Shown: positions 31,643 to 35,463, counted from the stretch's first letter. The stretch: 36,917 nt of DNA from a virus (IMGVR_UViG_3300025154_000257:1-36917), one strand, 5' to 3'. Notes: generated from the sequence alone by a model not told the origin. Program-made: numbers and translations.

Positions 31643-31899
31643 GCTGTCATATACTCCCCGCCATGCGCCCATATCCAGTCAGTGTACTCGTGGAATCCAG
31701 TGTCCGTGCGTCCGCGCAACGTCTCGATGCCTTTCTCTTTTAAATATCCAGCCGACGTCCGGCTGATGAACTCCATGAAGTCGATGTTGGACTCCCATGC
31801 CTCCGGCGTCGTGCCGCAGTGGTGGCAGTAGGCAAGATAGCGGGTATTCAGCGCGGGGTACTTTGCTTCCCACTCTTCGCGGGGGAACAGGCTGGTCAT
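31639..31899 (-). CDS. Hypothetical protein, 86 aa
   Basis: ATG 31899 follows GGGCGGGAG; the longer open frame lies in the preceding gene. The protein reads MTSLFPREEWEAKYPALNTR and has CHHCGTTPEAWESNIDFMEF, with a single Cys pair, and ends in an aromatic DWIWAHGGEYMTA. Short proteins of this type are known from phage early regions without a function. It is translationally coupled at both ends. Confidence 0.65.
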   Translation of the reverse strand: MTSLFPREEWEAKYPALNTRYLAYCHHCGTTPEAWESNIDFMEFISRTSAGYLKEKGIETLRGRTDTGFHEYTDWIWAHGGEYMTA

Positions 31900-32597
31900 C
31901 TCCCGCCCTCGATCCTCAACTCGGTTATCCATCGCTTGATCTGGTGAATGACGTGCGCGCGCCAGTTCTCCAGTTGCCACGCCTCGACGACGGCCTGCGG
32001 CCATACCCGCCCGTCCTGGGCCTTGACCTCTTTGAGCGACAGATACCCGGCATCGATCGCGGCCTGCGTCGGGAGGTCTGATAGCGTCAGGTACCCGCGA
32101 GCCCGGAGATACGGGAATACTTCCAGCTTCGGATGCAGCCCGAAGTGCTTTGCCGCGTCAGTTATGCTCATGTTTCGCTCTGAGCGCATAAGTGCGTTGA
32201 ACGACTCGACCTTCGGCGCGGCTATGGCAAGCTCGGCTGTTTTCGTCTCAATCTCTTTGGCTTGATCGGCGGCGAGCTGAAGCGCCTCGGCGTAGGTCTT
32301 TGGGATTGATGGTGCATTGTCTCGTTCCAGCTCCATCCATCGGTCAATTATTCTTGCTCGTATCTCGACGGAATAGCCGGAGACGAGGATCATGGTTTCT
32401 CGGTACGGGAGCTTATAGCAAAGTTGCCGCCGGTTCATCGAGTCGTAATAGATATCGCGAAAAGCCGCGATATCTCCCACAATCTCAAGCTGGTTGACGA
32501 TATCGGCCACAACCTTGTCATGGGCCTTCCCTGTCAACTCCGCTATTTCCCGCGAGTCCATTGCCAGTACGCCGTCGATCTTGATAAGTTCGTTCAT
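31896..32597 (-). CDS. Rha-family regulator with KilAC/antirepressor C-terminus
   Basis: ATG 32597 follows GGAGGG. The 233-residue protein has an N-terminal Rha domain with MDSREIAELTGKAHDKVVAD, then YYDSMNRRQLCYKLPYRETM and SGYSVEIRARIIDRWMELE. The C-terminal half has MSITDAAKHFGLHPKLEVFP with PYLRARGYL, typical of KilAC/ANT domains found in phage antirepressors. Such proteins bind DNA or repressor to switch gene expression. The gene is directly preceded by the structured element A, so its expression is probably controlled by attenuation. Confidence 0.88.
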   Translation of the reverse strand: MNELIKIDGVLAMDSREIAELTGKAHDKVVADIVNQLEIVGDIAAFRDIYYDSMNRRQLCYKLPYRETMILVSGYSVEIRARIIDRWMELERDNAPSIPKTYAEALQLAADQAKEIETKTAELAIAAPKVESFNALMRSERNMSITDAAKHFGLHPKLEVFPYLRARGYLTLSDLPTQAAIDAGYLSLKEVKAQDGRVWPQAVVEAWQLENWRAHVIHQIKRWITELRIEGGR

Positions 32598-32611
32598 GTC
32601 GCCCTCCAAAA

Positions 32612-32700
32612 TAAAAAGCCCCTTTCGCCGTGGTAGTCGGCTAGGGGGCTATGGACGCGGAATGATTCTCGGAGGACTACCACTCCGCCGACAATCATCT
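32612..32700 (-). ncRNA. Structured leader A: hairpin I plus terminator with complementary loops
   Basis: Read on the minus strand, hairpin I has an outer stem AATCAT/ATGATT-type and an inner stem CGGAG/CTCCG (32683-32687 with 32670-32674), with loop TGGTAGTC (32682-32675). The terminator hairpin has AGCCCC/GGGGCT (32650-32645 with 32622-32617), an inner GCCG/CGGC stem and loop ACTACCA (32637-32631), then TTTTTATTTT. Loop I TGGTAGT and the terminator loop ACTACCA are perfectly complementary over 7 nt, which would allow a kissing interaction. The SD and start of the Rha gene follow at once. Confidence 0.75.
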
Positions 32701-32874
32701 GACAACCTCGACTATATCACTTGTCCCGTCATCCGTCAAGCCGTCATCGTACTTGTCCCGATAGAACCTCGCGCACTTGGCGCAGGCATCGGCGTAGTAC
32801 TCGATGTCGAGATTGACGCAGCCAGAGCACTGATCGCCGTCAGCCCTGCCGTGAAAACTGGTCGTATGTTTCAT
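32695..32874 (-). CDS. Small Cys-rich protein, 59 aa
   Basis: ATG 32874 is used; the longer frame overlaps the previous gene. Two Cys pairs (CSGC and CAKC, about residues 16-19 and 31-34) form a likely zinc ribbon, followed by an acidic tail (DDGLTDDGTSDIVEVV). It ends within hairpin I of element A, so translation of its last codons and folding of the element may affect each other. No family is recognised. Confidence 0.65.
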   Translation of the reverse strand: MKHTTSFHGRADGDQCSGCVNLDIEYYADACAKCARFYRDKYDDGLTDDGTSDIVEVVR

Positions 32875-33088
32875 CGTTTGCCTCTTCTTGTAGCGCGGAT
32901 TCTTTTTCTCTAAGCCTGGCAACCAGCATCTGTATCTTATTGTTTTTTATTTCCACCCTGTCTTTAAGCTCCTCTATGTATCCAACCAAAGCCGCCAAGC
33001 TTTTAACGTTATGGCCATACCATTCATTTTTTCTATTAAGCCCGCGTCCAATGTTTTGTATATGCAAATTCAATATTCTTTTGTCCAT
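32840..33088 (-). CDS. Small coiled-coil protein, 82 aa
   Basis: GGAGGG precedes ATG 33088. The protein has SLAALVGYIEELKDRVEIKN and IQMLVARLREKESALQEEAN, forming a strong heptad pattern from about residue 30 to 70. No family is recognised. It overlaps both neighbours out of frame (35 bp and 19 bp), typical for packed early phage genes. Confidence 0.65.
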   Translation of the reverse strand: MDKRILNLHIQNIGRGLNRKNEWYGHNVKSLAALVGYIEELKDRVEIKNNKIQMLVARLREKESALQEEANDETYDQFSRQG

Positions 33089-33258
33089 ATCGCCCTCCCG
33101 CTAAAATGATATCCGTTTGCTCTTGATGTGCCCATTATCGTACAGCACATTATACACCCCACTGACCGTGCCTTGGCGCTAGGAGATACAAACAAATCAA
33201 AGTAGCTGGTCCATCCAGCGCGCTCAACTTTATACATTTTAGTTTGCAACGTTCCCAT
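33070..33258 (-). CDS. Hypothetical small protein, 62 aa
   Basis: ATG 33258 overlaps the upstream stop by one base (TAATG); ATG 33237 gives a more typical start (MYKVERAGW). The sequence TSYFDLFVSPSAKARSVGC and TKEY ending are compatible with a small soluble protein with several Cys. No family is recognised. Confidence 0.5.
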   Translation of the reverse strand: MGTLQTKMYKVERAGWTSYFDLFVSPSAKARSVGCIMCCTIMGTSRANGYHFSGRAIWTKEY

Positions 33259-33635
33259 TATCCTTGATCCTTGGTGTCAGCTTTTATTGTCATCCACTCG
33301 TGCAACTTCTCTACAGTTGCGGATATGTCAACATGGTTGCCGGCGTCAGCCTCGATAGCCAGTATACTAAAATCCTGCTTGGCTTCTTGATATGCATCGT
33401 ACGCCTCGGCCTGATACTTCTCGAGTTCGGCAATACCCGGAGCGGTTTTGTACTGGCGCGGATGCCTGAGCAAAACAACGCGGGCAAGACATGACACGTA
33501 CAGCTCGTCAAACGGCGAAAGGTAGGCGAGCAACGTGCTAACCATGTCAGGGTGTAGTTTGTCGCTGTAGCAGTTTTGCATGTACTCGATGAACCGGGCC
33601 GGAGTCATCCCGCTAGAACGTTGGGATTGTGTCAT
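33258..33635 (-). CDS. Replication-associated protein, possible helicase-loader type
   Basis: The 125-residue protein starts MTQSQRSSGMTPARFIEYM and has LARVVLLRHPRQYKTAPGIA and ELEKYQAEAYDAYQEAKQDF. The 'F..yK..P.iae....' pattern recalls small helicase-loader or inhibitor proteins of the G39P type that follow DUF4373-type initiators in phage genomes. The position directly after the initiator gene (23-bp overlap) supports this, but the motif evidence is weak. Confidence 0.45.
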   Translation of the reverse strand: MTQSQRSSGMTPARFIEYMQNCYSDKLHPDMVSTLLAYLSPFDELYVSCLARVVLLRHPRQYKTAPGIAELEKYQAEAYDAYQEAKQDFSILAIEADAGNHVDISATVEKLHEWMTIKADTKDQG

Positions 33636-34509
33636 CGATATCCATCCTCTCCGCGTCCGTCTTTATCTCGACTAGCACCCGGTCAAACAAGCTCGACAGA
33701 GCCGACGGGGTGAAAGGTTGCGAACGCCAGAACTTATCACCATTGGCGGTCATCTCGTAGAATTGTTTTATCACGCTGCCCGCAAGCTTAATCTGATCCC
33801 CGTCAGTATACCTAGGCGCGTGCTGCTTGCAATAGGCGATAATGCGCTTGATGGCCTGCGCCTCCTTTGGGTAGCAGGAGAACGCTCCCACCTTGAGGAT
33901 GAAAGAGTCAAAAATGGCCTTGTATAGCGGGTCTGTCTCCGGCTTGATTGCGACAGCTTTGATTACGGGTTTTACAGGCTCCGCGACGTTAGGCGCGGTA
34001 TATTCTCTTATATTCTCTTCTATACTTTCCTTTAATATAATATGTGCACTTTCCCCCGGAGTTAATCCGCATATATGCGGCGTTTCCTCCGGAGTAAATG
34101 GCGTTTCCTCCGGAGTAAACCACTTTGCAGTGTTTATATCAAGCTCTCTGTCTATCATGTTGTCTGATCGCTTCGAGTCTTTCACAACCTTAAGCCATCT
34201 TTTTTGTATGCCCGATGACGTTAATATCCGGAGTTTATCGAATATCCCCCGGTGGAAAAGCGATTTACTCACGGAGAAACAAACGATCTCATCAAGTGTT
34301 TTCTCGTCAATATGGTTGTCTGCCGCAAATAAAAGGCGAGTGTCATCGTCCCATTTCAACGAGTATCCTTCGTGGTAAATTGTCTTCAATAGCTCGACAA
34401 TGCACCCTATCCCGACAAGCCCAAACCTTGCTTTGACAAGTTGCATTTTGATATCCCATGTAGTGTCAAGCGGGAAATAATCAAGACCCTTTTTAGTTGG
34501 CCGGCCCAT
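33613..34509 (-). CDS. Replication initiation protein, DUF4373/Lin1244-type
   Basis: The 298-residue protein begins MGRPTKKGLDYFPLDTTWDI and continues with QLVKARFGLVGIGCIVELLK and TIYHEGYSLKW, the typical start of the DUF4373 family of phage replication initiators. This part is a winged-helix DNA-binding fold. The linker (about 130-170) contains a repeated FTPEETP motif (PFTPEETPFTPEETPHICG-type with LTPGESAH), whose DNA is a set of 21-bp repeats. The C-terminal half (IFDSFILKVGAFSCYPKEAQ) recalls DnaD-like domains. Origin recognition within its own gene is likely, as in lambda O. Confidence 0.85.
   Translation of the reverse strand: MGRPTKKGLDYFPLDTTWDIKMQLVKARFGLVGIGCIVELLKTIYHEGYSLKWDDDTRLLFAADNHIDEKTLDEIVCFSVSKSLFHRGIFDKLRILTSSGIQKRWLKVVKDSKRSDNMIDRELDINTAKWFTPEETPFTPEETPHICGLTPGESAHIILKESIEENIREYTAPNVAEPVKPVIKAVAIKPETDPLYKAIFDSFILKVGAFSCYPKEAQAIKRIIAYCKQHAPRYTDGDQIKLAGSVIKQFYEMTANGDKFWRSQPFTPSALSSLFDRVLVEIKTDAERMDIDDTIPTF
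33999..34122. other. Candidate replication origin inside the initiator gene
   Basis: An AT-rich stretch (33999-34047), including a tandem TATATTCTCT (33999-34008, 34009-34018) and TTTAATATAATATG, lies next to three iteron-like units: 34048-34068, 34081-34101 and 34102-34122. They share TTTCC(T/C)CCGGAGT(A/T)AA with the palindrome CTCCGGAG. A perfect 14-bp palindrome CCGCATATATGCGG (34067-34080) separates units 1 and 2. Iterons plus an unwinding region inside an initiator gene is the lambda-type origin layout. Part of the repeat is also explained by the coding repeat FTPEETP. Confidence 0.55.
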
Positions 34510-34510
34510 G

Positions 34511-35110
34511 CTACGCCTTACCCCAGTCTATCGCAACCGCTTCAAGCGTTCCTATCATGCCTTCGGCCTCGATATAATCGATGATCGGCATCTTGCGATT
34601 CCCGGCGGCTATGCGTGGATTTGAGTTTGTGCGATACCCATACTCTCGGTATAGCGCTCCCCATGCGACGGCATATTCCATGTCGTTGGCATGGGCATAC
34701 TCCCGGACGATCCTTGATATATTGTCGCGCGGCTTGACTTGTGGAGGCGGAAGTAGGGCTTGGCGCTGTTCTATCTTCGCTTCGATATCCCCCATCCGCG
34801 CGGAAAGATTGGCCATGACAGAGGCGACAATGCCGCCGATTACTTCCATGTCACGCGCGGTCAGGCTTGATCCTTGTGCCGGAATCAATGCGCGTTTGGC
34901 GTTCTCTCTAAACAGGCTCGCGGCGTTCTTGCCCATTCCGTGTTCGATTATGGCTACAGTTTCTTCGAGATCGTAATTAGCCGGGTTAGCCGGAGAGCTT
35001 GCCGACACTTTGTCGCCAATCGACGGCACCTTAGCTCCGGTAGCCTTGGCCCATCTTTGTACTGTTCGCTCGTCTTTCCCTACCGCTTCGGCAATTTCTT
35101 TTGTTGTCAC
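34511..35110 (-). CDS. HTH regulator, 199 aa
   Basis: GTG 35110 follows GGAGG. The N-terminal residues TTKEIAEAVGKDERTVQRWA with AKATGAKVPSI form a clear helix-turn-helix of the MerR/transposase-like 'wing' type. The C-terminal part has REYAHANDMEYAVAWGALYR and EYGYRTNSN with IDYIEAEGMIGTLEAVAI, a domain pattern seen at the end of phage antirepressor-like proteins. It is therefore a DNA-binding phage regulator. It is preceded by structured element B, which parallels the Rha gene and element A. Confidence 0.75.
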   Translation of the reverse strand: MTTKEIAEAVGKDERTVQRWAKATGAKVPSIGDKVSASSPANPANYDLEETVAIIEHGMGKNAASLFRENAKRALIPAQGSSLTARDMEVIGGIVASVMANLSARMGDIEAKIEQRQALLPPPQVKPRDNISRIVREYAHANDMEYAVAWGALYREYGYRTNSNPRIAAGNRKMPIIDYIEAEGMIGTLEAVAIDWGKA

Positions 35111-35123
35111 GGCTTTGCCTCCA

Positions 35124-35212
35124 ATAAAAAACCCCCATAGCCGGTGAGAGACGGCAAGGGGGCAAGGGTGACTAATTGACCGCGTAAGCTCTCACCCTCG
35201 CGTGGTCAATCC
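35124..35212 (-). ncRNA. Structured leader B: hairpin I plus terminator with complementary loops
   Basis: On the minus strand hairpin I has the perfect stem ATTGACC/GGTCAAT (35210-35204 with 35181-35175) and exposes GGTGAGAG (35196-35189) in its loop. The terminator hairpin has CCCCC/GGGGG (35162-35158 with 35136-35132), an inner GCCG/CGGC stem and loop TCTCTCAC, then TTTTTTATT. GGTGAGAG is perfectly complementary to CTCTCACC (35150-35143), 46 nt downstream. Layout, inner GCCG/CGGC stem and spacing match element A, but the loop sequences are unrelated. Confidence 0.75.
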
Positions 35213-35223
35213 ACGCAAATGGA

Positions 35224-35463
35224 TTATACCATGGTGTTATACCTCGGGTCAAGCCTGAGCTTTTCCCGTGCCGCGACGCAATCGATCCCGGCGACGGCGC
35301 ACCATAGCAACATCTCGCTCGATTCGAAAAGGAACCAGCTGGCGTCCTCCTTGTCGAGCCACTTGCCGGTTTTGTTGAGCGGCAGGATCAGGTCGTTCAG
35401 GGCCGCGCTGATGACTGCCCGGCCGAGATCGGCATAGCAAGCGGCTAGTGATGTATCTGGCAT
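35224..35463 (-). CDS. Hypothetical protein, 79 aa
   Basis: AAGGAC precedes ATG 35463. The protein is helical with GRAVISAALNDLILPLNKTG, KWLDKEDASWFLFESSEMLL and WCAVAGIDCVAAREKLRLDP. It resembles unnamed phage early proteins of the 'A..W..s.....sF...C...g.d...iR' type, but no function is known. It lies between the SSB gene and element B. Confidence 0.6.
   Translation of the reverse strand: MPDTSLAACYADLGRAVISAALNDLILPLNKTGKWLDKEDASWFLFESSEMLLWCAVAGIDCVAAREKLRLDPRYNTMV

Follow-up and report, generated by a model that had tools for sequence, protein, structure and literature searches.

Two leader elements with a covarying hairpin-to-terminator loop contact in an uncultured phage: putative transcription attenuators and similar elements in Vibrio and Pseudoalteromonas phages

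Two regulator genes on the minus strand of the window (the whole stretch of 36,917 nucleotides analysed here, viral contig IMGVR_UViG_3300025154_000257) are each preceded by a leader in which a hairpin is followed by an intrinsic terminator, the loops of both being mutually complementary. This locus raises the question of whether such complementarity reflects a conserved contact and, if so, what this contact does in front of the genes. The parts of both leaders, elements A and B, are as follows:

32739-32595, minus strand: element A, whole, made of promoter, hairpin I, spacer, intrinsic terminator (inner GCCG/CGGC stem), U-run, SD, and start codon
32734..32739, minus strand: element A promoter, -35 TTGACG, 17-bp spacing to TATAGT
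32711..32716, minus strand: element A promoter, -10 TATAGT
32661..32699, minus strand: element A hairpin I, with the stop codon of the upstream ORF in its 5' arm
32675..32683, minus strand: element A loop contact L, GTGGTAGTC, complement of 32630-32638
32617..32650, minus strand: element A intrinsic terminator hairpin, predicted -18 kcal/mol
32630..32638, minus strand: element A loop contact L', GACTACCAC, within the terminator loop
32608..32617, minus strand: element A U-run
32603..32607, minus strand: SD GGAGG of the Rha gene
31896..32597, minus strand: Rha/KilAC (ANT) regulator gene, downstream of A (Pfam PF09669, E 1.8e-14; PF03374, E 4.5e-11)
35252-35108, minus strand: element B, whole, parts in the same order as in A, including the inner GCCG/CGGC stem
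35247..35252, minus strand: element B promoter, -35 TTGACC, 18-bp spacing to TATAAT
35223..35228, minus strand: element B promoter, -10 TATAAT, overlapping the stop codon TAA of the upstream ORF (35224-35226)
35176..35209, minus strand: element B hairpin I
35189..35196, minus strand: element B loop contact L, GGTGAGAG, complement of 35143-35150
35131..35163, minus strand: element B intrinsic terminator hairpin, predicted -18 kcal/mol
35143..35150, minus strand: element B loop contact L', CTCTCACC, within the terminator loop
35126..35131, minus strand: element B U-run
35118..35122, minus strand: SD GGAGG of the HTH gene
34511..35110, minus strand: HTH protein gene (MTTKEIAEAVGKDERTVQRW...), downstream of B, with a weakly scoring N-terminal HTH

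The architecture common to A and B agrees in coordinates, hairpins, loops, U-runs, SD, and start codons with a preliminary description made from the sequence alone. Complementarity is perfect in both elements, with 8 bp in B and 9 bp in A, the latter one pair longer on each side than first described, and the probability of such matches arising by chance was 0.004 for A and 0.005 for B (dinucleotide shuffles, 70 nt upstream). The loops of A and B had been called unrelated, which is too strong, as they have a common core 5'-UGNNAG-3'/5'-CUNNCA-3' (UGGUAG in A, UGAGAG in B). A further feature, absent from that first reading, is a sigma70-like promoter of its own for each element, which weakens the suggested control by translation of the upstream gene. 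Such control is possible for transcripts reading through into A, since the upstream ORF ends inside hairpin I; with its stop codon (TGA, 32695-32697) in the 5' arm, ribosomes on these longer transcripts could touch the hairpin.

The plainest explanation, that these are ordinary terminators whose complementarity arose by chance or as a by-product, would fit single matches that each reach only p of about 0.005. Against it stand four leaders in viral contigs L002 (G001), L003 (G002), L004 (G003), and L029 (G006), retrieved solely through the homology of their HTH proteins, all of which repeat the layout of A and B. In L004 the element lies directly before the gene, with CTCTCAC as the hairpin-I partner and GTGAGAG as the terminator partner, and in L029, where a small ORF separates element and gene, CTACCAC and GTGGTAG hold these places; these are the contacts of B and A, respectively, with the partners swapped. 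The G003 and G006 leaders are 90% identical, and the two middle positions that differ in each loop are compensated in both pairs. Between the leaders of G001 and G002, the flanks and the base of the terminator are common, the apical contact X/X' differs (GAACAAC/GTTGTTC vs. AACCATGT/ACATGGTT), and the changed base of the second contact, L/L', is compensated (TTGACCG/CGGTCAA vs. TTGACAG/CTGTCAA). The combined Fisher p for these four leaders, found without use of complementarity and with A and B excluded, was 7.5e-6. Directly before the gene, no element was found in the further relatives L026, L030, L032, and L033. The contact is not a general feature of phage terminators, being absent from 113 terminators of other phage contigs (18 neighbour loci) and from lambda and HK022 when scanned with the element detector. 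A DNA operator of the HTH protein was rejected as well, the near-identical HTH proteins of G001 and G002 going with repeats that differ yet are still complementary. Covariation in these predicted pairings already contradicts the explanation by chance, to which we give hardly any weight, and supports the conserved loop contact that had been proposed on covariation-type evidence.

The window and nine related contigs contain 196 candidates that resemble terminators; a contact of at least 7 bp occurs in 10, of which nine are real leader elements: A, B, and seven others. They belong to five uncultured phages, with two elements in the window, two in G001, three in G002, and one each in G003 and G006. 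One G002 element (contact TGTGACAGCA/TGCTGTCACA) lies before a ParB-like/DNA methyltransferase gene, and elements of G001 and G002 with the contact TGATAGGCA/TGCCTATCA lie before a phrog_4652 gene, a GC-rich stretch intervening. In L003 this stretch is repetitive (GGCGAGGCGCGGCAGGGCGGGGCC...) and lies between the third element and the phrog_4652 gene (L003:6946-7066). A position before regulator genes, as first described, thus holds for A and B but not for relatives, which precede such mixed genes or tRNA/late regions; the element is therefore not a device for antirepressors only. Nearly all nine elements contain the contact core 5'-UGRNAG-3'/5'-CUNYCA-3' in either polarity, UGRNAG being found in hairpin I or in the terminator.

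Several other features were observed. L035 carries two different attenuators in one phage (L035:15607-15700 and L035:18943-19090) with the same core UGACAG/CUGUCA, and because of it they could cross-pair. Two phages brought in through the two regulator genes encode long degenerate Ala-rich repeat proteins (DAARDAAWDAA...) at L003:9132-10228, in tandem copies, and at L005:6143-6877. In addition, a KilAC-domain protein (L005:4479-5327) has an N-terminal HTH closer to the HTH protein of the window than to Rha, suggesting that the two genes preceded by A and B have swapped domains.

A BLAST search of a phage collection with a G002 element returned just short AT-rich matches, the pattern GCAATTTTGTAC..GGCCG found only unrelated coding matches in viral contigs besides the known ones, and a candidate in Salmonella phage SEW_9 was rejected as a weak chance match. 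A consensus scan pointed to Vibrio phage 1.085, and its stretch, used as a BLAST query, gave first Pseudoalteromonas phages HS2, Pq0, and BS5 and Vibrio phages 1.054 and 1.240; additional BLAST searches gave 1.275, NF, BT-1011, H2, 1.110, 1.242, and Seahorse. The resulting set holds 13 cultured phages, twelve found by BLAST and none of these twelve by complementarity, plus five metagenomic copies in which both contacts are kept. The order of parts is always promoter, hairpin I with loop L, spacer X, terminator 5' arm, X', L', terminator 3' arm, and U-run, which is also that of the HTH leaders of G001 and G002. The L/L' contact is TTGGTAG, GTGGTG, TGGAAG, TTTGGCGA (NF), or TTGAAAGA (BT-1011), with exact partners in 12 of the 13 phages; in Seahorse it is down to 5 Watson-Crick pairs. 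When own partners were compared with foreign ones, L/L' reached a trace of 40 against a permutation mean of 25 (1 of 720 permutations as high) and X/X' 85 against 55 (0 of 200,000), values that are not strict probabilities as the sequences are related. By column counts, 83% of cells were paired, compared with 33-55% with slid partners (MAFFT shifts two or three rows). The terminator stem covaries strongly, and so does an antiterminator-like helix, G(A/U)GGG/CCC(U/A)C, adjoining L'. The hairpin of 1.085 (UUGGUAG) was also considered as a tRNA D-arm and rejected, since Rfam gives it no tRNA score and it varies in homologues. Covarying homologues in other phages, set as a test beforehand, were thus found. 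Common descent of the window elements and the cultured set is a possibility only: layout and core motif are common to both, and the covariance model of the latter (R1) has no match in the window.

Recurrence of the core in the window, G001-G003, G006, and many cultured elements, and in either polarity, could alternatively mean that a protein of phage or host, or a ligand, binds the loop-loop helix and would read its shape and UGRNAG/CUNYCA rather than the sequence between. The contacts of NF and BT-1011 deviate from this core, no candidate protein common to all phages was identified, and we consider such a site improbable.

The cultured elements often lie where early and late regions meet, ahead of tRNAs or late genes: in 1.085, 1.110, H2, and Seahorse tRNA genes follow directly after the U-run, with late genes beyond them in 1.110 and Seahorse (terminase in the latter), and in BT-1011 an ORF after the U-run lies ahead of the small terminase gene. 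The Pq0 element is found among structural genes and is possibly a free RNA gene, because the next same-strand gene starts several hundred bases on. In lambda, the equivalent place at the early/late border is held by pR'-tR'. Among eight named phages and five uncultured contigs examined for the Pfam Q families PF06530 and PF03589, lambda alone scored above the cut-off, for PF03589; the element bearers among them thus lack a recognisable Q, a diverged Q being possible. This lack, together with early and late transcripts that begin with two hairpins, would also be expected if the folded hairpin pair were a cis-acting processive antiterminator binding RNA polymerase, as HK022 put does. However, the second hairpin is here itself an intrinsic terminator with a U-run, HK022 matches neither the element detector nor the covariance model, and the put-structure paper (PMC9378689) mentions no kissing pair or pseudoknot, all of which makes a put-like action quite improbable.

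An own promoter and a terminator directly before SD and gene are predicted from the sequence for A, B, and most relatives. We infer, with a probability of about 60%, that A and B are promoter-proximal transcription attenuators in which a co-transcriptional loop contact decides between terminator and read-through, a proposal of the preliminary description that gains support from the compensatory changes in homologues collected blind to complementarity. Polymerase would start some 5-20 nt upstream of hairpin I, by the predicted start sites and presumed kinetics, and make hairpin I and then the terminator. As L' and X' are transcribed before the terminator 3' arm, L/L' and X/X', which nest mutually and cross the terminator stem, could form first. 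Predicted folds of transcripts that end just after L' show the L/L' pairing for B, G002_1, and G002_3 and the X/X' pairing for G001, and hairpin I stays closed in the pre-terminator fold of A; in predicted full-length folds, the terminator forms. It is on account of these early forming contacts and the antiterminator-like helix that the elements are read as probable attenuators biasing read-through versus termination.

An early contact would delay closure of the terminator and let some polymerases through, and a factor holding L or L' would restore termination. For this direction the odds seem slightly better than even; the opposite sign, in which the contact favours or frees the terminator by taking L' from an antiterminator, appears almost as probable, if a little below. 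In the compact elements A, B, G003, and G006, the kissing contact may tolerate the closed terminator and hence be neutral or stabilising. Termination would yield a leader RNA of ~90-130 nt and read-through the downstream operon's mRNA, and candidate triggers would be a protein of the phage or trans pairing by terminated leaders that have accumulated. The bases of a loop could drift provided that those of its partner change with them, and several attenuators, in one phage or in different ones, could thereby be kept separate.

Because the terminated leader resembles IsrK, action in trans is the main rival of the attenuator reading. The main product would then be a trans-acting small RNA, whose loops would pair with a leader, either in its own phage or in a different one, and set immunity or antirepressor expression, with the cis contact as auto-inhibition only. 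Such a role would suit an RNA of ~90-130 nt with predicted promoter and terminator, the Rha/KilAC gene behind A, and loops that are the most variable part of near-identical leaders, as specificity determinants would be; in IsrK, an antirepressor operon has a terminated leader of this kind (PMC4825925). The mixed downstream genes (methyltransferase, phrog_4652, tRNAs) and the several different loop pairs within one phage speak against it, no separate target site was identified, and we take it as a minority possibility.

Returning to attenuation, we tentatively suggest, at a strength clearly below that for A and B themselves, a class of phage RNA switches occurring in unrelated phages and replacing N/Q-type proteins at several early and late promoters, in which a freely diversifying hairpin-loop-to-terminator contact sets read-through as well as operon and phage specificity, as a cis counterpart of RNA-based immunity. 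If confirmed, this would be a protein-free gating of early and late phage operons with modular, orthogonal base-pairing specificity, which could explain termination control in phages without recognisable N or Q and be a source of new attenuator parts. The cultured Vibrio and Pseudoalteromonas phages make the reading directly testable.

The preliminary description knew of no family with this layout, and Rfam 15, at gathering and lax thresholds, returned only tRNAs and chance matches such as sX13 (for the cultured elements, only the adjoining tRNAs). The open-licence papers searched held no description of such an element either, and a covarying hairpin-to-terminator loop contact in a transcription attenuator thus appears without prior description in these sources.

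Among known systems, c4 RNA and P4 CI RNA control an antirepressor or immunity operon through two short complementary contacts in one transcript, and they are akin to the present elements in logic, not in anatomy. Unlike in these RNAs, an intrinsic terminator contains one of the partners here, and the loop pairs are numerous. A candidate for the antirepressor gene expected downstream of c4 is found at A (Rha/KilAC) and not at the other elements, and c4 antisense RNA (Rfam RF01695; PMC2864571) gave no match to A or B even at a lax threshold. IsrK, from the orf45-anrP leader of Salmonella prophage Gifsy-1, is a short RNA of an antirepressor operon acting in trans (PMC4825925). It resembles our elements in its intrinsic terminator, its alternative structures, and a read-through that yields the antirepressor mRNA; it differs in that it is mainly known to affect translation, in trans, and the passages of the paper considered here describe no covarying loop-terminator kissing pair.

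HK022 put RNA, which acts on distant terminators (PMC9378689), likewise has two hairpins, placed at or close to where phage transcripts begin, and a cis action on termination, but put suppresses later terminators via the polymerase, whereas here the second hairpin is the terminator. In place of the two non-terminator hairpins of put, the second hairpin of the elements is followed by a U-run.

The lambda late leader is laid out as late promoter, early terminator, and late operon, and uses protein Q. Much of the cultured set holds the same place, unlike lambda with no Q family above the cut-off in the element-bearing phages tested. In ANTAR dual-hairpin antiterminators, similar hexaloops that are not mutually complementary are bound by a protein; like our elements, they combine two hairpins, the second tied to the terminator. 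Finally, one mark of an attenuator, namely promoter, intrinsic terminator, and gene in succession on the same strand, is predicted from the sequence for A, B, and most relatives.
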